From positions 788,478 through 852,477 of the forward strand of contig NZ_JOKH01000001.1 of NCBI RefSeq assembly GCF_000722635.1: DNA of 64,000 bases, written 5' to 3'. Source of the DNA: Endozoicomonas numazuensis. GTDB taxonomy: Bacteria; Pseudomonadota; Gammaproteobacteria; Pseudomonadales; Endozoicomonadaceae. A model generated the notes under the pieces. The model saw only the letters and a list, made by a program, of their open reading frames with translations. It made no database searches and was not told the origin of the DNA. Position 1 is the stretch's first letter, and every line of letters starts with the position of its first letter. Both the position numbers and the translations under genes were made by a program. Positions 8,210 to 27,250 of the stretch are shown piece by piece.

Positions 8210-9877
<1,668 letters not shown>

Positions 9878-14356: not shown

Positions 14357-15004
14357 TCAACTTTGGTCCTTGAATTGATCCATCTGATTTGCCCAAGCGT
14401 TAAACTCCACCTCAAACTCAGCTTCATTTGCCGTCTCAGGCAGTGCTTCCAGCGCGGTTTTCCCATCCATGCGCAGTGAGCGGACCGTGTCCAGAATCCC
14501 GTTGAATTTCAACTCCACTTGCCGGATCTTTTCAACAGCAGTCGTCGCATCCACTGAATAGCGCCGCATATGATCGGCCACGCCACTGGGTGGCTCCCCT
14601 TGCATACCGTTATCTATGAACTCTCTGGTCTGTTGCGCTACCCTGACGTACTCCCTTTCGACAGTCGTTCCTCCTGGTAAAAAACGCCCACGCACCGCAT
14701 CAGCAAACTGATCCAGTTTATTGCGATAAAGATCCAGTAACTCTTGATGGGTAGGGGGTGGTTCAGGAAGGTCCTGTACTGCTTTTTGCCGCTGATGCTC
14801 AAAAAGGATGGCATCGTATGACGCCAGAGTATCAATGGTTTTGTTCGGAATTTCGCCCGTATACTCCTCCTCTCCCTGTCCATCACGCCACTGTAGAGCA
14901 TGCAGCTTACCGGGTATCGAGTATTGGCTCAGGTCAATCTTCAGTGCATAGCCATCCACTATGACCATGTTATCTGCGGTTACTATAGTTACCTGGTTAC
15001 TCAT
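14357..15004 (-). CDS. Phage tail protein, probably fibre-associated or fibre assembly
   Basis: 215 residues, the last gene of the phage late operon. The start at 15004 is chosen for GAGG before the ATG; a longer frame starts at 15016. Residues 20-75 (YSIPGKLHALQWRDGQGEEEY, then a helix) resemble the N-terminal part of proteins encoded just after collar-type tail fibres in Mu-like phages. The rest is helical and likely coiled coil. It overlaps the fibre stop codon region by a few bases, so the two are probably translated together. The function is inferred mainly from position. Confidence 0.5.
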   Translation of the reverse strand: MSNQVTIVTADNMVIVDGYALKIDLSQYSIPGKLHALQWRDGQGEEEYTGEIPNKTIDTLASYDAILFEHQRQKAVQDLPEPPPTHQELLDLYRNKLDQFADAVRGRFLPGGTTVEREYVRVAQQTREFIDNGMQGEPPSGVADHMRRYSVDATTAVEKIRQVELKFNGILDTVRSLRMDGKTALEALPETANEAEFEVEFNAWANQMDQFKDQS

Positions 15005-15012
15005 GGGTATCC

Positions 15013-16203
15013 TCACAGTTTGATGATGTAGCAGAGAGCATAATAAGGAGGGCGAACATCGACGGTGTGGTTATGACTACCCGTGCTGTTACTACTGGCA
15101 CTGTGATTATGGGAACTGGAACTACCGGTATACCCCGTATACAAAGCACCCGATGAAGTCCGTGCATCACCTCCGGCAATGAGAGAGGTATAACGCCAAC
15201 CGCCAGCCAACGAACCACCGACCTTATTGCCCGTTGCCGCATGACGGTGACTGGGGATCTGGCTGATTGAAAGCGTGGTATTCCCCACACTGACAGAATG
15301 TGAGTGCGCACCGCCTGTACTGGTCGTTTTATTAGTGCTTCCACCCATATCAGCAGGGTTATAGGTATCCCCTGCCCCAACAATAAACCGGTCTCGCAAA
15401 TCAGGAATCTGAATACCACCCGTCGTTTTACCGGAACCATTACACAACTGATAACCTGCCGGAATCTGAGCGACAGTCCCTGCCCAGAGGATGATCGAGC
15501 CTGCAGGCAGCGCATTCTCTACTGCTTCCTGTACAGCCTTTGGTGTTGCTGCGCCGATATTGACTGCAGTGAGATTAATACTGCCGGTCAGCGGCTTGCC
15601 GTTGACGGTAACCGACTTGTCGACCTTGTTCTGGTTCAGGTCATACACCGCCTTGGCCGAGGCATGGAGACTGGCATTATTGGTGGTCAGACTGCTGGTG
15701 ATGCCATAGTTCTGGACATTCCCCAGACCCACATCACTTTTCGTGGTCGCCTGAGCCCTCAGCCCTGAGTAAGTCCCCGTGATCAGCACATACTGGTTGG
15801 CCAGCTTGTTACCCAGCCGGGCGCTGTCATACGCTTGGGCTGTTTTGTCCAGTTTATTGTCCTGCAATACCTTGCCCGCAGCCGCCAGCAGAACCTTGTT
15901 GGCAGAGCCATCGGAGAGACTGGAGGTCGCCGAATAATTCGGAACATTGCCCAAACCCACTTGCGACTTGGTTGGAGCCGTTTCAGCGGTAAAGATCCTG
16001 ACCCAGCCATTATTAGCCGCATTTCTCAATTTGAACTCAGGCGGGTTACTGCTGGTATCCAGCCAGACCATCCCGGAAAAGGGGCTCTGAGGCTCCGATG
16101 AGCCCGAGTTCTGCTCACTGAGTGCCGCCAGGATCTGGTTCAGCAGTGCCCTGAAGGGGCCACCGGCCAGATTGGGAATATGAAAGCTGTCGGTCTGACT
16201 CAT
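15013..16203 (-). CDS. Tail fibre protein with collar-type C-terminal domain
   Basis: 396 residues. The N-terminus (SFHIPNLAGGPFRALLNQIL) would attach to the tail, and the middle has repeats of the VGLGNVPNY/VGLGNVQNYG type common in phage fibres. From about 230 comes a phage tail collar domain (GSIILWAGTVAQIPAGYQLCNG ... PDLRDRFIVGAGD). The end is rich in HSH/HNH motifs (GGAHSHS, SSHNHSAS, GSHNHT), which often bind metal in fibre tips, and closes with PPYYALCYIIKL. It determines host attachment. The start overlaps the previous gene's stop by 4 bases. Confidence 0.85.
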   Translation of the reverse strand: MSQTDSFHIPNLAGGPFRALLNQILAALSEQNSGSSEPQSPFSGMVWLDTSSNPPEFKLRNAANNGWVRIFTAETAPTKSQVGLGNVPNYSATSSLSDGSANKVLLAAAGKVLQDNKLDKTAQAYDSARLGNKLANQYVLITGTYSGLRAQATTKSDVGLGNVQNYGITSSLTTNNASLHASAKAVYDLNQNKVDKSVTVNGKPLTGSINLTAVNIGAATPKAVQEAVENALPAGSIILWAGTVAQIPAGYQLCNGSGKTTGGIQIPDLRDRFIVGAGDTYNPADMGGSTNKTTSTGGAHSHSVSVGNTTLSISQIPSHRHAATGNKVGGSLAGGWRYTSLIAGGDARTSSGALYTGYTGSSSSHNHSASSNSTGSHNHTVDVRPPYYALCYIIKL

Positions 16204-19200
16204 GAGGCCTCTCCATAGCCGATGGATTGATAATCAAAGGCCGCCGCAAGGGCTGAACCTCCATTAAAGAATCGAATATTAAATCCTGCTCGATCCTGAC
16301 CCGTCAGCTCCCAGCGGCCATTCTCGGGCAACCCGTGAGCGGTAATAGCAATACTGGGGCTTTGATCAAGGAATGGGGTCAGATAATTAACCCTGAGACC
16401 GGCAGACGGTGCCGTCAGATTGTGTGCCCTTTCGATACGGTCCTGAACATCAGCGATCAATTTCAGACTCGCCAGGGTTGCAGCCGATCCAGCCGCATAA
16501 CCTTGTAGAGTTACCCTGAGCCTAAAACCTCTGCCTCGGAACTCACCCTTAATAAAAGGTGTCCACTCTGACCAGGTAGCCGAATTACTGGCCGGATCGT
16601 CATCCGTCTGGCTGACTTCATAACGCAGGGATACATTGTCAGGAATCGCGCCGTCAAACAGGGGCCAACTGTCCATCAGGTCGGTTCGGTCATCGATTGC
16701 GTCAGCAAAATAAACAGATGCATCCGTCTCCAGAGTTAGACGAGTTGTGGCCACAGCTCCCAGATCAAGAGGCTGTGTCATTGTATAGAAAGGCGTGCCT
16801 TCCTCCAGACCGATACTGGTCAGTTGCAAGCGCAGAAAGTTCACGCCATCCGACTCTGTATTGACCAAAAGATGGTTCTGCCCCTGTACGACATCCGCTT
16901 CATACTCATACCAAGCCGATGCTTGATTGGGTCCGGCAGGATCTGCATCCCAGACTTCTCCGTTCAAGGTAAAGCCCAAACCACCCTCGGGATCATTCAG
17001 ATACATCCTGATCCAGCAACGGCCTGAAATAGGCGAATCAAAATAGACGTTGATATCTTCTTTAAATTTATTCCCCGAGTTCACTTGCTGATCCAAAAAG
17101 AGGGTATTTTCAGCAAGCGTTAATGATCCTCCGAGGTTAACTACTGCCTTATTCTTTGCTCCTGGCCAGGTATCCGGCTCCTCCCTTTCCACCACCCGGT
17201 TATAACCGATCAGACCGGCCATATTAGAGACAACCACAGAAGCCTGCTCCGAGTAATAGCCCGTGGCATTCACGGGTTTCACCAGGTACGTTCCGGCCAG
17301 CAGAGGCACACTGGCCAGTGTCGCATTACCCGGCAGCCGGTCAGTCACCTGGGCGGCACTATCCCAGGTAGCGCCATCCCCCACCAGGTGAGTATGACGA
17401 ACATGAATGGAGCCCCCGGCCAACACATCCGGATCGGTGCTTAGATCCCAGCTGAGGCTGGCGGTATTACCAGACTGCCCGTGAAGACGCAGGTTCTGCA
17501 ATGCCTGGGGAGGGCGCTGGGTGCCTTGGACAATGAAGCTTTTAGTGACATAGCCAGAGCGACGGACCCCATTAATGGCACGTACCCGAAAGGTGTAGTT
17601 CCCTGGGGGAATCGCATTCAGTGTTGCCGAAACAGCAGGACCGGATTGGATACCGGACCAGTTCGCCTGCCCCAACTCCTGGTATTCAAACTCGTAATGC
17701 GTAGCCCCGGCGACAGGCTGGCAGCTCACCACCACCTGGTTGATGATCTGGATACCCGAACCGATCAGACTCTCTTGAGTCGTCAGACCGCCTGGCACAC
17801 TCAAACCGATCAGAGTAAACAGGGTATTGCTCCAGGCACTCAGACCCCCTTCACGCTGACTGATGGTGGCGACCTGCAATTCGTATTCAGCAGGTGTTAA
17901 CGGGGCGATTAACCAGCGATTATCGGTGGTTTTACTCTCCACCAGGAGATCACTACCCTGCAGCAGGCGTACCTGGTAACCGCTGCTTTTATCCACGGCA
18001 CTCCAGGTCACTTCACCGGCATGAGTAGCATTTTCATCAAAGGGCTTGAATGCCAGGTTGGCGGGTGCATCTGGTGCTGCCATGGTCAAGGCCAGTGTCG
18101 CCGGATCGGATTCTTCTACCCGTCCCAGGCCTACCACCTCCACCCGGTAACTACCAACCTTTAGCACCGGCACCTGGTATTGATGACCACTGACACGGGT
18201 CTGAACCGGGATACTGTTATCGGACAGACGAATAATGGTGACCCGGTACTGACTGGCATTACTTTCCCAACTCAGCAATCCCCAGAGTCCTGGATCGTCA
18301 CCGGCCACAAAAGCCAGTTCGGCGGGTGTCGTCAGGCTTTCCGTCAAGCGCTGGCTACTGGCCTGCCAGGGCGAAAATTGGTCACGCCACTGGGCCCGGA
18401 CCCGGAACTGGTAGACGGCGGGTAACATAGGTGGCAACCGGACCGGCGCCCCAGAGCAATCACCGTTGAATTCAAAATCCGGCCCGGAGACCTGAAACTC
18501 AATGCGATCAGTACGGGGATCTTGCTCAGTAAATGTCAGGGTGCCGCCACTGGTAGTCGGGTCAGCGTTTTCAGAGACAAAGACCGCTACCGGGCTGGCC
18601 AGGCTATCAATTTGCAACTGGGTTTCTTCCGACCAGGCTGACGGGGTAATCCCCAACACAGACCGAACTCTCAACCGGTAATTGCCTGCATAGAACCAAC
18701 CCAGACGCACCGGCGAGGCCGCAACCGAGGTCCGGTAAACCCCTTCGCCCCCATGGGTCAGCAGCTCCAGTTCATAGGTCTGGCCACCGGTATGTGGCCA
18801 GCTGACCTCCAGCCAATGATCGTGGGCATTCAGTTGCTCAACGGACAGATCCGGTGCTTCCAGGGTCAGGCTGATCGCCTGGCTGACCGGTGCACTACTG
18901 ACTCCAAAGGCATTTCTGGCCACGACCTGCACGGTATACACTTTTTCTGCCACAGGCATAGTTAAGGGCACAAGGGTATCGGGTACCTCAGCCTGCCAGA
19001 TCACATCCTGTCCATCCAGTAACACCACCCGGTAACGGGCAGCCTGACCTTTCCAGGACAATACACCGTGTTGATTCAGCTTGTCTGGAGTGCGTATAAA
19101 ACTAAACTCCGTCACCGGCTGCACCGTCCGAGGATCAGAGCTGTCGAGATTGCCAGGCAACAAAGCATCCACGATGCGTCCAGGCTGACCGCTCCAGATA

Positions 19201-20624
19201 TCGGGATGATCTTCCACCAATTCCACTCGAATACCACTGCCTGACGGGTCCAGCTTCCAATTCACTACCCTGAACTCTAAGCCTTCCACACCCCGAAAAT
19301 CGGTTTTGACTACCCGGCTCATCACTACATCAATCGCCGAAAGCATGAATGTACCGACGACACTGGCTCCCCGACGACGATTCTCCAATTCAATCCAACC
19401 CAAGGCCTGAGCCTGAGTGTTCGACTGAACAAAATCCAGACTCATATCTTCAACCCGCTCACGGCCATCCTCTTCGATATACTCAGGGCGTGACAGCGAC
19501 GGGAAGTCAGTCATATTAAAACCCTGACTGGGCTCCAGGTACTGCCCGGTAATCGTATTGATTCTGTCTTGTAACGGTTGGGAAACCCGGACCTGCAGAT
19601 CACCGATAGCCTCTGACTTCTTTAAGGTACGGGTTGCCGGACCGTAATAGGCACCGGCCCTAACGCCCCACAAACCACCGGAACGGATAAACTCGCCCGC
19701 CATGGTAGCTGCAATTTTACCTAAAACCTGTTGAGGATCGGTTTCCTCATCAAAGACCGCATGACAGCTATAACGAGACTCTGTGACACCATTGCGTACC
19801 ACCTGCTCATCACAGATATTAGCGGCCCGGATAAAGTAGTCCTCTAAAATATGCTTTTCCGGACTGAGCAAATGATGGCGAATATAATGACGGCCCTGCA
19901 GTACTGGATTACTGCTGAACATCGCTTGGGTCGTGCGGGGATCATGAACTTTCATGCCCCTCACCTTGGCCACCACATCCTCTATACCACTGGGCCACTT
20001 TTCCGGGTCCGAGCGCAGGCGGGCGTGTAGAAAGGTCTGGCCACGACCCACCATCTGCTGATCCCACTGGGGAACCCCGTTGAGTGAAAACGGCACACCA
20101 CTGGCCTGGAGACTGCGACTGTAGAACCAGACTTCGCCATAGAGCTTTCTGCTACCCATGGCCTGACTAAGAATGCTGTCGAACATCCCAAACAAACCCT
20201 TAAAGTTCTGGGGTTGTGGCTGTTCGCCAAAATACCAGTAACTGCCTTCCGCCGTGCTACTGCCTCGGGTGAAAACCCGGTCACCAACCCGGACACTCAG
20301 ACAGTCACTGCAGGGATGACCCGCCAGGGGAATCACCAGGTCAACAATTTCGTCCTCACCACTGTCATTGGGCTCACCCGGTTCCTGAATGAAGATCACA
20401 GGACCTGAAACTTCCACCTCACCAAAGATGACCTGCTTGGGCGCATTAGAAGCCCGAAAAGTCTGCTTGCGCTCTTGGGGATTACTGCCCTGATCAACAG
20501 CCTTGGCTTTCTGGGCAGAGTAATAGGCATAGCCTGCTGCAACAACACTCACTGCCAGGGCAATGGCACCTACCGTTCCTACCGAGGCTACGACAGCAAC
20601 AACAGCGGCAGCTACTGGCGGCAT
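16200..20624 (-). CDS. Central tail tip protein (J-like) with fibronectin-type III repeats
   Basis: 1474 residues from the ATG at 20624, which has GGAGG 5 bases upstream; a longer frame starts at 20642. The N-terminus has a hydrophobic stretch (about 1-35), then a tail-hub-like region with KQVIFGEVEVSGPVIF and a Cys pair (HPCSDC). Residues about 500-1070 hold at least five repeating ~95-residue units of fibronectin-III type, recognisable by YRVxVxG..W patterns. The C-terminal third is beta-rich. The arrangement matches the lambda J-type host specificity proteins. Its size makes it the second largest coding investment of the tail after the tape measure region. Confidence 0.8.
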   Translation of the reverse strand: MPPVAAAVVAVVASVGTVGAIALAVSVVAAGYAYYSAQKAKAVDQGSNPQERKQTFRASNAPKQVIFGEVEVSGPVIFIQEPGEPNDSGEDEIVDLVIPLAGHPCSDCLSVRVGDRVFTRGSSTAEGSYWYFGEQPQPQNFKGLFGMFDSILSQAMGSRKLYGEVWFYSRSLQASGVPFSLNGVPQWDQQMVGRGQTFLHARLRSDPEKWPSGIEDVVAKVRGMKVHDPRTTQAMFSSNPVLQGRHYIRHHLLSPEKHILEDYFIRAANICDEQVVRNGVTESRYSCHAVFDEETDPQQVLGKIAATMAGEFIRSGGLWGVRAGAYYGPATRTLKKSEAIGDLQVRVSQPLQDRINTITGQYLEPSQGFNMTDFPSLSRPEYIEEDGRERVEDMSLDFVQSNTQAQALGWIELENRRRGASVVGTFMLSAIDVVMSRVVKTDFRGVEGLEFRVVNWKLDPSGSGIRVELVEDHPDIWSGQPGRIVDALLPGNLDSSDPRTVQPVTEFSFIRTPDKLNQHGVLSWKGQAARYRVVLLDGQDVIWQAEVPDTLVPLTMPVAEKVYTVQVVARNAFGVSSAPVSQAISLTLEAPDLSVEQLNAHDHWLEVSWPHTGGQTYELELLTHGGEGVYRTSVAASPVRLGWFYAGNYRLRVRSVLGITPSAWSEETQLQIDSLASPVAVFVSENADPTTSGGTLTFTEQDPRTDRIEFQVSGPDFEFNGDCSGAPVRLPPMLPAVYQFRVRAQWRDQFSPWQASSQRLTESLTTPAELAFVAGDDPGLWGLLSWESNASQYRVTIIRLSDNSIPVQTRVSGHQYQVPVLKVGSYRVEVVGLGRVEESDPATLALTMAAPDAPANLAFKPFDENATHAGEVTWSAVDKSSGYQVRLLQGSDLLVESKTTDNRWLIAPLTPAEYELQVATISQREGGLSAWSNTLFTLIGLSVPGGLTTQESLIGSGIQIINQVVVSCQPVAGATHYEFEYQELGQANWSGIQSGPAVSATLNAIPPGNYTFRVRAINGVRRSGYVTKSFIVQGTQRPPQALQNLRLHGQSGNTASLSWDLSTDPDVLAGGSIHVRHTHLVGDGATWDSAAQVTDRLPGNATLASVPLLAGTYLVKPVNATGYYSEQASVVVSNMAGLIGYNRVVEREEPDTWPGAKNKAVVNLGGSLTLAENTLFLDQQVNSGNKFKEDINVYFDSPISGRCWIRMYLNDPEGGLGFTLNGEVWDADPAGPNQASAWYEYEADVVQGQNHLLVNTESDGVNFLRLQLTSIGLEEGTPFYTMTQPLDLGAVATTRLTLETDASVYFADAIDDRTDLMDSWPLFDGAIPDNVSLRYEVSQTDDDPASNSATWSEWTPFIKGEFRGRGFRLRVTLQGYAAGSAATLASLKLIADVQDRIERAHNLTAPSAGLRVNYLTPFLDQSPSIAITAHGLPENGRWELTGQDRAGFNIRFFNGGSALAAAFDYQSIGYGEAS

Positions 20625-21034
20625 GGTAACCTCCAACCGCATTCAACAAGACTAAGGGAATGCGCTCGTAGACCTTGAGTTTCTGGCAACCAGACTGTTT
20701 CTCCCCAGACAATGCCCAGCGTTTTACCATTAGCCAGATCGGCTCCGGCTATATCCCCTCTTTGCAATTGCTGAGGCTCAACCCTGATCGTTTGAAGTTC
20801 CCGGGCAACCACTTCGTACACATCATGACACTGACGCTTTAACAGTTGCTTTAATGCTCCGCCAGCGGTCGTATACTGACCTCGCCAACCTTTGGCAAAG
20901 TCATGCCCGGTTTGTGCCTGGAGTGCATCCGCAGCCGCCAGAGCGCAATCAAACTGCCCCCACTGAAACGGGGTATCAATCGCCTTATGCAACCAGTCAA
21001 TCAATCTGACTTCCCAGTCTTCACGCCGTTGCAT
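20612..21034 (-). CDS. Tail-tip assembly peptidase-like protein (DUF6950/NlpC-P60-like)
   Basis: 140 residues from the ATG at 21034; a longer frame overlaps the upstream gene and is not used. The conserved block FQWGQFDCALAAADALQAQTG places a Cys at the start of a helix, as in NlpC/P60 cysteine peptidases and the DUF6950 family of phage proteins encoded next to the tail tip gene. GDIAGADLANGKTLGIVWGE would be the central strand region. A clear catalytic His is not obvious, so the activity is uncertain. It overlaps the J-like gene by 13 bases. Confidence 0.6.
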   Translation of the reverse strand: MQRREDWEVRLIDWLHKAIDTPFQWGQFDCALAAADALQAQTGHDFAKGWRGQYTTAGGALKQLLKRQCHDVYEVVARELQTIRVEPQQLQRGDIAGADLANGKTLGIVWGETVWLPETQGLRAHSLSLVECGWRLPCRQ

Positions 21035-25178: not shown

Positions 25179-25535
25179 TTATCCTTGTACAGCGGCTCGG
25201 CTGTTGAGATGTTCCGCAACCTCGCGGGCGATTAACTGCATTCGGTGATAGTCTTCCGGCTTGACCGTGCGGCCACTGAGGTCAGCGTCGGCTTTCAGTG
25301 CCACCACATCCAGACCGGTACAGACACTGCTCGTGGAGGAACTATTGAACTTCAGCTGGGCTCCACCCTGACACCACCAGAGCAGGGCTTCCCGGTGCTC
25401 CTCCCACACGTCGAAGACTTCGGCTTTCGGTTCCGGTGACTGTTGAACGCCCCAGGCGGCCAGATCGTCTTCAAACTCGGCCTGACCTTTGGGGGTGATG
25501 GGTTGCGCGGCCAGCAGGTGGCTGACCGCCTCCAT
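25179..25535 (-). CDS. Tail assembly chaperone, downstream frame (GT-like extension, DUF1799-like)
   Basis: 118 codons, MEAVSHLLAAQPITPKGQAEFEDDL... AHLNSRAAVQG. The ATG overlaps the stop codon of the upstream chaperone (TGATG), and there is no Shine-Dalgarno before it. A -1 shift at the A AAA AAC heptamer 1 base before that stop codon would fuse both frames into one protein of about 227 residues. This is the G/GT arrangement of lambda-like tails, in which the T part recruits the tail tube protein and the G part coats the tape measure. Re-initiation at the ATG is the alternative. Confidence 0.75.
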   Translation of the reverse strand: MEAVSHLLAAQPITPKGQAEFEDDLAAWGVQQSPEPKAEVFDVWEEHREALLWWCQGGAQLKFNSSSTSSVCTGLDVVALKADADLSGRTVKPEDYHRMQLIAREVAEHLNSRAAVQG

Positions 25536-25544
25536 CAGTTTTTT
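25507..25544 (-). promoter_or_regulatory. Programmed -1 ribosomal frameshift signal in the tail chaperone genes
   Basis: Minus strand: slippery heptamer A AAA AAC (25544-25538) in the correct zero-frame phase (AGA AAA AAC TGA). An 8-base spacer TGATGGAG follows, then a 9-bp stem GCGGTCAGC/GCTGGCCGC with one G-U pair and a 5-base loop (25529-25507). Slippage gives AGA AAA AAA CTG ATG GAG, in frame with the downstream gene. All three parts fit the known rules for -1 frameshifting. Confidence 0.85.
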
Positions 25545-25864
25545 CTGCTGGCTTCCCCAGAAGATGCTTGCAGGTAGGCACGCACCACCGCTTGGTTAAA
25601 CGCGGGCAAGTCCGCCAAGGCATCACGATTTTCATCACTGAACGACAGCTCATTCCCGTCTTCATCATGAATACCGCTCCAGCCCTGGACGATCTCTTCA
25701 AACACTACTTTGTCCCCTTGAGCAGCCAGATCGCGGTACTGAGTAGCGGGCAAAATCTTCAGATCCAGCGTAATCGGGTAAGACTTTGAACGACCTTTAT
25801 CCAGGGCTACTTTGATATCAGCAGGCCAGTCCTTAACAATGCGGTCTTTGACAAACTTGAACAT
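25535..25864 (-). CDS. Tail assembly chaperone, upstream frame (G-like)
   Basis: 109 residues, MFKFVKDRIVKDWPADIKVALDKGRSK..., encoded between the tail tube and the tape measure, where siphoviruses place the tail assembly chaperone. The C-terminal half is helical (FNQAVVRAYLQASSGEASRKN). Its last codons form the slippery heptamer of the frameshift signal, so part of the product should be extended by the next frame. The short form ends at TGA 25535-25537. Confidence 0.75.
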   Translation of the reverse strand: MFKFVKDRIVKDWPADIKVALDKGRSKSYPITLDLKILPATQYRDLAAQGDKVVFEEIVQGWSGIHDEDGNELSFSDENRDALADLPAFNQAVVRAYLQASSGEASRKN

Positions 25865-25929: not shown

Positions 25930-26844
25930 TTACGCCGTGATAATCTGGTCACCGTCACCAATGGGCCGCACCGGAATCGAGTAAGTCAGGGTTCCGTTCT
26001 GGTCGCCGTAGGTGGGTCGCCCCAGCTGCAGCTTGTCGGTACTCCACTGCACCTGGTTACCGGCGATTCCGTGGGTCAGGCTGAATGCGACGGTCTCACC
26101 GGTTTCGGCTTTGGCAAAAGGATCAAAGCTACCCAGACTGCCCGCCTCCAGAACCAGGGTGCCCGACGGCTGATAGTCCGAGATCATCACTTCTTCATGG
26201 CCGATGTATTCTTCATAGCTGACCTGGTTCGCCTGGTCGTATTCCAGACTGATCAGCTTGACGCTGTTGCCTGCCAGTGAAGCGCTGGTGTACTCGGCTC
26301 CGACCTTGAGGGGCGTCTGCCAGTCCGAAAAACTGGCGGCTGGGTTAGCCCCAGCCTTGGGCTTCACAAACAAACCGGTGAAGGTGTAACGCATCTGGGG
26401 AAACTGCTTAGCTACCAGACTCAAACTCATGGAGCCACGAGCACCGACCAGAGCATGGAGTACCCCGTCCATGTAGAAATAGAAGGTGTTGGATGCCGTG
26501 CTGTTATCGTCCAGGGCATAGCTCACCTGTTCCGGAGAGCTGCCCACGGTCGCGGTTCGCAAGCACGCCTCTGCCAGACCCGCCCAGGGCGCAGGCTGGT
26601 TAGCGGTCCCGGAACCGGAGAAGTCACAACCGAACTCCAGAGTGACGTAGATTTCGGTGGGCAGTTCCGGGCTGTTGCCCAGCTTGCCATCGTCGTAGTC
26701 CAGAGCCGTACTTTCACCGGCCATGGGTGTAATGGATACCTCACGACCCAGCACATAGGACGGTGAACCGCCATCAATGGCATCGGTGCCGTAGGTGCTT
26801 TCTGGCGCAAAAGCTAAAACCTTTTTAGCGAATTTACGAGCCAT
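25930..26844 (-). CDS. Phage tail tube protein
   Basis: 304 residues from the ATG at 26844, which has GGAGG 9 bases before it; an in-frame ATG also exists at 26853. Beta-rich, starting MARKFAKKVLAFAPESTYGTD and repeatedly alternating strands and Gly/Ser turns. It resembles the major tail subunits of B3-like transposable siphophages and lies directly after the gp37-like gene. It forms the hexameric tube along which the tape measure runs. No sheath gene accompanies it, so the tail should be non-contractile. Confidence 0.75.
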   Translation of the reverse strand: MARKFAKKVLAFAPESTYGTDAIDGGSPSYVLGREVSITPMAGESTALDYDDGKLGNSPELPTEIYVTLEFGCDFSGSGTANQPAPWAGLAEACLRTATVGSSPEQVSYALDDNSTASNTFYFYMDGVLHALVGARGSMSLSLVAKQFPQMRYTFTGLFVKPKAGANPAASFSDWQTPLKVGAEYTSASLAGNSVKLISLEYDQANQVSYEEYIGHEEVMISDYQPSGTLVLEAGSLGSFDPFAKAETGETVAFSLTHGIAGNQVQWSTDKLQLGRPTYGDQNGTLTYSIPVRPIGDGDQIITA

Positions 26845-27250
26845 GGTTGGCATCCTCCGTGTACTCAGTAGTAAATTTGTCGATCCAGGCCACCTGGCCC
26901 TTATGAATATTCAACAGCTGTCCGCCGTCCAGGGTCAGTGCCTCAAACCCCTGGGGAGCCCAGCCAAACAGACGACGACGTATTTCCTGTCTCAGTGGCA
27001 GCAGATCCGGCTCCCGGTTATGGGCCTTCTCGACCACCACAACCCCCAGAGTCAGGCTCACCGTTTGCAGAGCCGGGCCACTGCCCCGTACATCCGGTGC
27101 GGCCCTTTCCGCCAGGTTGATCACGAACAAGGCCGGAGTTCGATTAAGAGCTTGCTTGTCCAGATCCGACAGCGCCAGCAGACCTTTAACCTCTACCCAG
27201 GGCGGTACTCCCTGCTTCAGCTGCTCAATCACCACCGACACCGCATCCAT
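26834..27250 (-). CDS. Mu gp37-like tail completion protein (DUF1834)
   Basis: 138 residues, MDAVSVVIEQLKQGVPPWVEVKGLLALSDLDKQALNRTPALFVINLAERA... The block TPALFVINLAERAAPDVRGSGPALQTVSLTLGVVVV is typical of gp37/DUF1834 proteins of Mu-like phages, which act in head-tail joining or tail completion. It overlaps the upstream gene by one base (TAATG) and the tail tube start downstream. Confidence 0.75.
   Translation of the reverse strand: MDAVSVVIEQLKQGVPPWVEVKGLLALSDLDKQALNRTPALFVINLAERAAPDVRGSGPALQTVSLTLGVVVVEKAHNREPDLLPLRQEIRRRLFGWAPQGFEALTLDGGQLLNIHKGQVAWIDKFTTEYTEDANHGS

Follow-up and report, generated by a model that had tools for sequence, protein, structure and literature searches.

In phage lambda, a -1 ribosomal frameshift near the end of the first tail assembly chaperone gene (G/GT) yields the chaperone in two lengths, short and extended, which act on the tail-tube and tape measure proteins, with a molar ratio given as 30:1 (PMC5009743). 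For two genes of an HK97-like chaperone cluster the figures given are 6% and 7% (PMC3711429). The motif AAAAAAC beside a stop codon was predicted in Acinetobacter phage Loki (gp12/gp13) and in IME_AB3 (PMC5313236); this is a prediction for two phages, apparently with no stimulator analysis, and the likeness to the locus described here is drawn from the motif. Here we describe a junction of this kind, between a probable tail assembly chaperone gene (G) and its downstream partner (T), in a stretch of 64,000 nucleotides from Endozoicomonas numazuensis (contig NZ_JOKH01000001.1, positions 788,478 to 852,477; hereafter the window). The junction is genuine and well conserved, but it belongs to a known class and is no surprise: lambda already provides the mechanism, and the Loki prediction of the same motif came earlier.

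On sequence grounds, we are highly confident that the junction works by programmed -1 ribosomal frameshifting of the kind seen in tail assembly chaperones. The majority of ribosomes would stop at the TGA of G and release a protein of 109 aa, while a minority would re-pair in tandem on A AAA AAC and translate 119 more codons, giving a G-T protein of 228 aa. A hairpin 8 nt downstream would act as a helper, perhaps together with an upstream Shine-Dalgarno-like (SD-like) element. By analogy with lambda gpG/gpGT, the G part common to both products would coat the tape measure protein, the rarer T part would recruit tail-tube subunits, and neither G nor G-T would be found in the virion.

The G/T junction and its conservation

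The prophage genes on the minus strand run in the order tail terminator, tail tube, G, T (an open frame of 118 aa) and tape measure, with the two-part G/T gene between tail tube and tape measure as in the lambda G/GT type. The original prediction had read the end of G as AGA AAA AAC TGA with an in-phase heptamer, followed by an 8-nt spacer and a 9-bp stem with one G-U pair, and all of this was borne out on the minus strand (Table 1); the loop is 5 nt long. It was also right that the -1 frame leads into the downstream open frame, although the fusion comes to 228 residues and not about 227. When the 221 stop-to-stop frames of at least 80 aa on both strands of the window were filtered for an in-phase slippery heptamer no more than 3 codons from the stop and a -1 frame of at least 90 codons, two passed: this junction and a T TTT TTA in a plus-strand frame overlapping a 678-aa open reading frame.

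G matches phrog_569 at E 1.6e-15, a family that carries the label tail length tape measure protein, and at E 6.5e-5 it matches phrog_313 (Tail assembly chaperone). Phage_TAC_4 was matched by 20 of 31 aligned members of G, the window's own G giving no match. A structure model of G (pLDDT 87) matched a named viral tape measure chaperone (E 9.4e-5) and, weakly, the HK97 chaperone. T, whose structure model also has a pLDDT of 87, matches phrog_680 (E 7.1e-15), and its match to DUF1799 (E 7.9e-4, 20 bits) lies under the Pfam cut-off of 26 bits. In a Pfam scan of the window's T and those of 40 of the other 65 listed junctions, 38 of the 41 members of the T alignment (window included) matched DUF1799 at E<=0.01.

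Loci with G were collected from viral contigs (the best 80 of 246 confirmed loci), from two named phages, and from three sets of genomes: relatives of the window, its class and its phylum. Counting the window's own genome each time, a G match was present in 3 of 193 genomes of relatives, 8 of 369 of the class and 25 of 398 of the phylum; with the single G protein as query, the scan of genome contigs returned no relative. The G profile matched 119 of 120 loci, three of them the window's own copy, and L108, which gave no G match, was dropped before counting. Removal of 19 of the 119 rows as copies of a 160-nt context, two further window copies among them, left 100 distinct contexts, namely the window and 99 relatives.

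The heptamer in these contexts is A AAA AAC in 87, G GGA AAC in 11 and G GGA AAG in one (L090), with none in L012; one of the first two forms is thus present in 97 of the 99 relatives (86 and 11). The stop codon follows directly in 85 of the 100 contexts (84 of the 99 relatives) and one codon later in nine. The -1 frame stays open for at least 100 codons in 98 contexts, the exceptions being L012 and L075, which runs off its contig. Downstream of the in-phase heptamer the T profile matches the -1 frame in 99 of 100 contexts, again except L012, and it recovers 58 of 59 sequences left out of its building (E 2.3e-11 or better in both cases). Loss of the heptamer in close relatives that keep both genes, which the original prediction had named as refuting it, was not seen apart from the doubtful L012: relatives retain the heptamer even where protein identity falls to about 25-30%, and the proposal of a -1 frameshift giving G and G-T chaperones is well supported. 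What was observed directly is the gene order, the elements in the sequence and how well these are conserved; we infer the slippage itself, its rate, the effect of each stimulator and the roles of the proteins.

The circularity of a search based on G was lessened by searching 398 genomes with Pfam DUF1799 (PF08809), which matched in 29 genomes at 38 places. Thirty of these places became loci and were examined, the other 8 being left out; by genome position, 22 had already been met through G and 8 were new. In each of the 30, T lies in the -1 frame of a G-like frame that carries an in-phase heptamer (A AAA AAC in 20, G GGA AAC in 9 and A AAA AAG in one, L148). L157 is a weak case, with a partial T match. 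In five of five further named phages (Rhodovulum RhkS_P1, Pelagibaca PeaS-P1, Escherichia IME347, Synechococcus S-LBS1 and S-CBS3), A AAA AAC stands directly before the stop. The chaperone gene of Synechococcus phage S-LBS1 (L127, 1495-1875) carries the annotation ABC-transporter ATPase component, which seems to be wrong.

Table 1. Positions of the junction elements and of the adjoining tail genes in the window.
Feature	Position	Strand	Remarks
G: probable tail assembly chaperone	25535..25864	-	109 aa, ending ...SRKN in the zero frame
Slippery heptamer A AAA AAC	25538..25544 (25544-25538)	-	in phase, abutting the stop
Zero-frame stop TGA of G	25535..25537 (25537-25535)	-	
Spacer, heptamer to hairpin, 8 nt	25537-25530	-	
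Hairpin, 9 bp	25507..25529 (25529-25507)	-	stem 25529-25521 / 25515-25507, loop 25520-25516; 8-nt spacer precedes
T: -1 frame extension	25179..25538	-	CTG to stop (25181-25179), 119 codons open from 25538; DUF1799-like domain
ATG overlapping the stop of G as TGATG	25533..25535 (25535-25533)	-	probably an incidental codon of the transframe region
SD-like GGGGAAG	25552..25558	-	positions -14 to -8 before the heptamer; anti-SD duplex -5.5 kcal/mol
Tape measure protein, 985 aa	22219..25176	-	phrog_339 E 6.7e-106; TMP_3 E 5.6e-41
Tail tube protein	25930..26853	-	Phage_tube_2 E 4.6e-11
Tail terminator	26834..27250	-	Phage_tail_terminator E 5.8e-22

Candidate stimulators and the expected slippage rate

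The 40 nt on the 3' side of the window's heptamer fold at -19.4 kcal/mol, as low as only 0.15% of the 40-mers sampled from the same strand of the window, and for the window alone the hairpin reaches p = 0.043 when compared with synonymously recoded versions of the -1 frame. For the family, we took 56 representatives (window included) from the 100 contexts, leaving out contexts at least 75% identical to one kept, those shorter than 120 nt, and L012 and L090, whose heptamer is neither A AAA AAC nor G GGA AAC. Because the position and length of the hairpin vary, each sequence was folded separately and compared with a synonymous null. The 40 nt after the heptamer fold at a mean of -15.6 kcal/mol, against -6.9 to -10.2 kcal/mol for comparison segments starting at least 10 nt before or at least 20 nt after; in the recoding test the mean z was -1.05, with p<0.05 in 20 of 56 and p<0.01 in 7. 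Of the two elements whose conservation had been proposed as a check, the heptamer is kept almost throughout; the hairpin is not universal.

The original prediction had overlooked the SD-like GGGGAAG 8-14 nt upstream of the heptamer, which falls inside the range of 6-17 nt in which stimulatory SD-like sequences were searched for upstream of such motifs (PMC4066793). In the family, pairing with the anti-SD sequence averages -4.5 at position -14 against a background of -0.57, peaks where the 8-nt stretch begins 12-15 nt ahead of the heptamer, and on average exceeds all 300 synonymous resamplings. At the SD-like site, GGA or GGG serves as the Gly codon in 21 of 35 cases, and elsewhere in 67 of 338 (Fisher p 1.2e-6, without correction for kinship). 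The candidate element is a trend of the family and is not significant for the window alone.

Frameshifting in Escherichia coli dnaX makes the shorter product, whereas here it would make the longer one. The dnaX signal has the same three parts, an SD-like element, an A-rich heptamer and a hairpin, with A AAA AAG as its heptamer and not the weak A AAA AAC found here (PMC3711429). The description of the signal as textbook did not hold for the heptamer, which is weak in E. coli and not a textbook one for bacteria; insertion sequences very likely use it nevertheless (PMC4066793). A low slippage rate is therefore to be expected, and a low yield would fit lambda, given its molar ratio.

Frameshifting weighed against other routes to T

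That T is a separate gene, reached by termination and reinitiation at TGATG with no frameshift at all, we consider very improbable. An ATG overlapping a stop, as in the window, is a common arrangement for coupled genes, and it speaks for this explanation; however, the ATG is not conserved. ATG is absent from the first 20 codons of the -1 frame in 86 of 100 contexts, and ATG, GTG and TTG are all absent in 69, while at the position of the window's ATG most relatives carry a different residue (I, K, T, L, E and others), and a start codon is mostly lacking. The peptide at this place is conserved from the first codon of the -1 frame, mostly as L-x-x-A-A. Since this conservation begins at the slip site and mostly goes without a start codon, the window's ATG looks incidental, and reinitiation would also leave the conserved heptamer unexplained. 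An independent start of T would give the N-terminal peptide MEAVSHLLAAQPITPK. Transcriptional slippage, in which a base added to or dropped from the run of six A's would fuse the frames, appears slightly less probable still: many members have runs of A6-A7, and L012 has A8 and one open frame, yet the run is short and the 11 G GGA AAC contexts have only three A's. As GGG replaces AAA at X while YYYZ is unchanged and X XXY YYZ is kept, tandem slippage of the ribosome is favoured over a transcriptional event. The probability that the heptamer lies by chance beside an ordinary overlapping gene pair seems close to nil; one other frame of the window passes the same mechanical filter, but the counts among the relatives (97 of 99, plus one G GGA AAG) and among the DUF1799 loci from divergent phages (30 of 30) already contradict it.

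A slip with the stop codon in the A site was also set aside. X XXY YYZ is retained whole in the contexts where G stands in place of A, and the stops of the 100 contexts are mixed (TGA 39, TAA 32 and TAG 29), which argues against a mechanism specific to one release factor. Under the classical model of tandem slippage, AAC in the A site is decoded as Asn first and the slip follows. The junction SRKN-LMEAV should thus exceed SRKK-LMEAV, the form named in the original prediction, which may occur as the lesser one. The predicted tryptic fusion peptides are NLMEAVSHLLAAQPITPK with Asn at the slip and LMEAVSHLLAAQPITPK with Lys.

Several points weigh against -1 frameshifting as the explanation of the junction or against its proposed helpers, in addition to the overlapping ATG. 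The hairpin is without significance in 36 of the 56 representatives, several lineages showing no excess, and RNAalifold on 28 aligned junctions (the window and 27 of the other 65 among 66 listed) gave no pairs and no consensus structure. The SD-like element is individually significant in one of 56 representatives, and in the window it is not above the amino-acid expectation (p 0.78); the 3' end of the host 16S rRNA was looked for and not recovered, so that a standard anti-SD was assumed. The heptamer nearest T was selected on how long its -1 frame is, and a few loci have it far from the stop (57 nt in L013, and 35 codons in the weak case L157). In E. coli, A AAA AAC slips inefficiently, and host tRNA modifications may matter. 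Finally, in L012 G and T read as one frame, with an A-run of A8. Compared with L011 (96.6% identity over 5.3 kb), L012 has 179 mismatches and two single-base indels, each of them an extra A in an A-run, one at the heptamer (about 2817 in L012), the other not far into the tail-tube gene (about 1540; this location was inferred from the annotation of L003). L012 probably reflects a homopolymer error rather than a real mutation and is a doubtful counterexample. The second insertion shifts the presumed tail-tube gene near its start.

The phage and its tail module

The phage is of the Mu type in its transposase and head genes, with a Mu transposase C-terminal domain, Portal_Mu, Phage_Mu_F, a Mu-like protease and gpT; judged by the major head protein, Vibrio phage vB-Vv-ZX4290 (68.7% identity) is its best match in the phage collection. 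The same task is known from Mu-type transposable phages, namely Mu and the D3112 group (PMC5009743, PMC4378225). The Mu chaperone frameshift, however, is -2 (PMC5009743), whereas T lies in the -1 frame of G, and for the D3112 group the proposed slippery site is T TTT TTC (PMC4378225). The assignment to a Mu/B3-type phage, as originally proposed, holds as to Mu for the transposase and head genes but not, as to B3, for the chaperone: the chaperone regions of B3, D3112 and JBD25 (L121-L123) gave no significant match to the G profile (best E 3.4). For this reason, the tail module is one shared with other phages (a Tunavirinae coliphage, cyanophages) and not with B3.

B3 and JBD25 carry an in-phase C CCT TTC, a candidate frameshift site, 41 and 39 codons before the chaperone stop and joined to a -1 frame of about 90 open codons. 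In D3112, G GGT TTT and T TTT TTC overlap at a comparable position, and the candidates of the three phages lie 39-43 codons before the stop. Elsewhere in the window, positions 16200-20642 encode a tail-region protein of 1480 aa with a fibronectin type III match, by its position a possible tail-tip or fibre protein. A GroEL-like chaperonin gene (phrog_5725) at 8210-9856 lies beyond the tail end of the prophage and is probably the host's, as the matching IMG/VR record ends near window position 14400 (computed from its length and offsets).

The modest novelty of this locus is the tie of DUF1799 to frameshifting. A literature search found no paper linking the two, most subscription journals being outside its reach; one paper treats a DUF1799 protein as a gene distinct from a tail assembly chaperone, and the terms frameshift, frame-shift and slippage are absent from its text (PMC9658991). 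The value of the finding lies in its use as an annotation aid and as a comparative set for this family of junctions.
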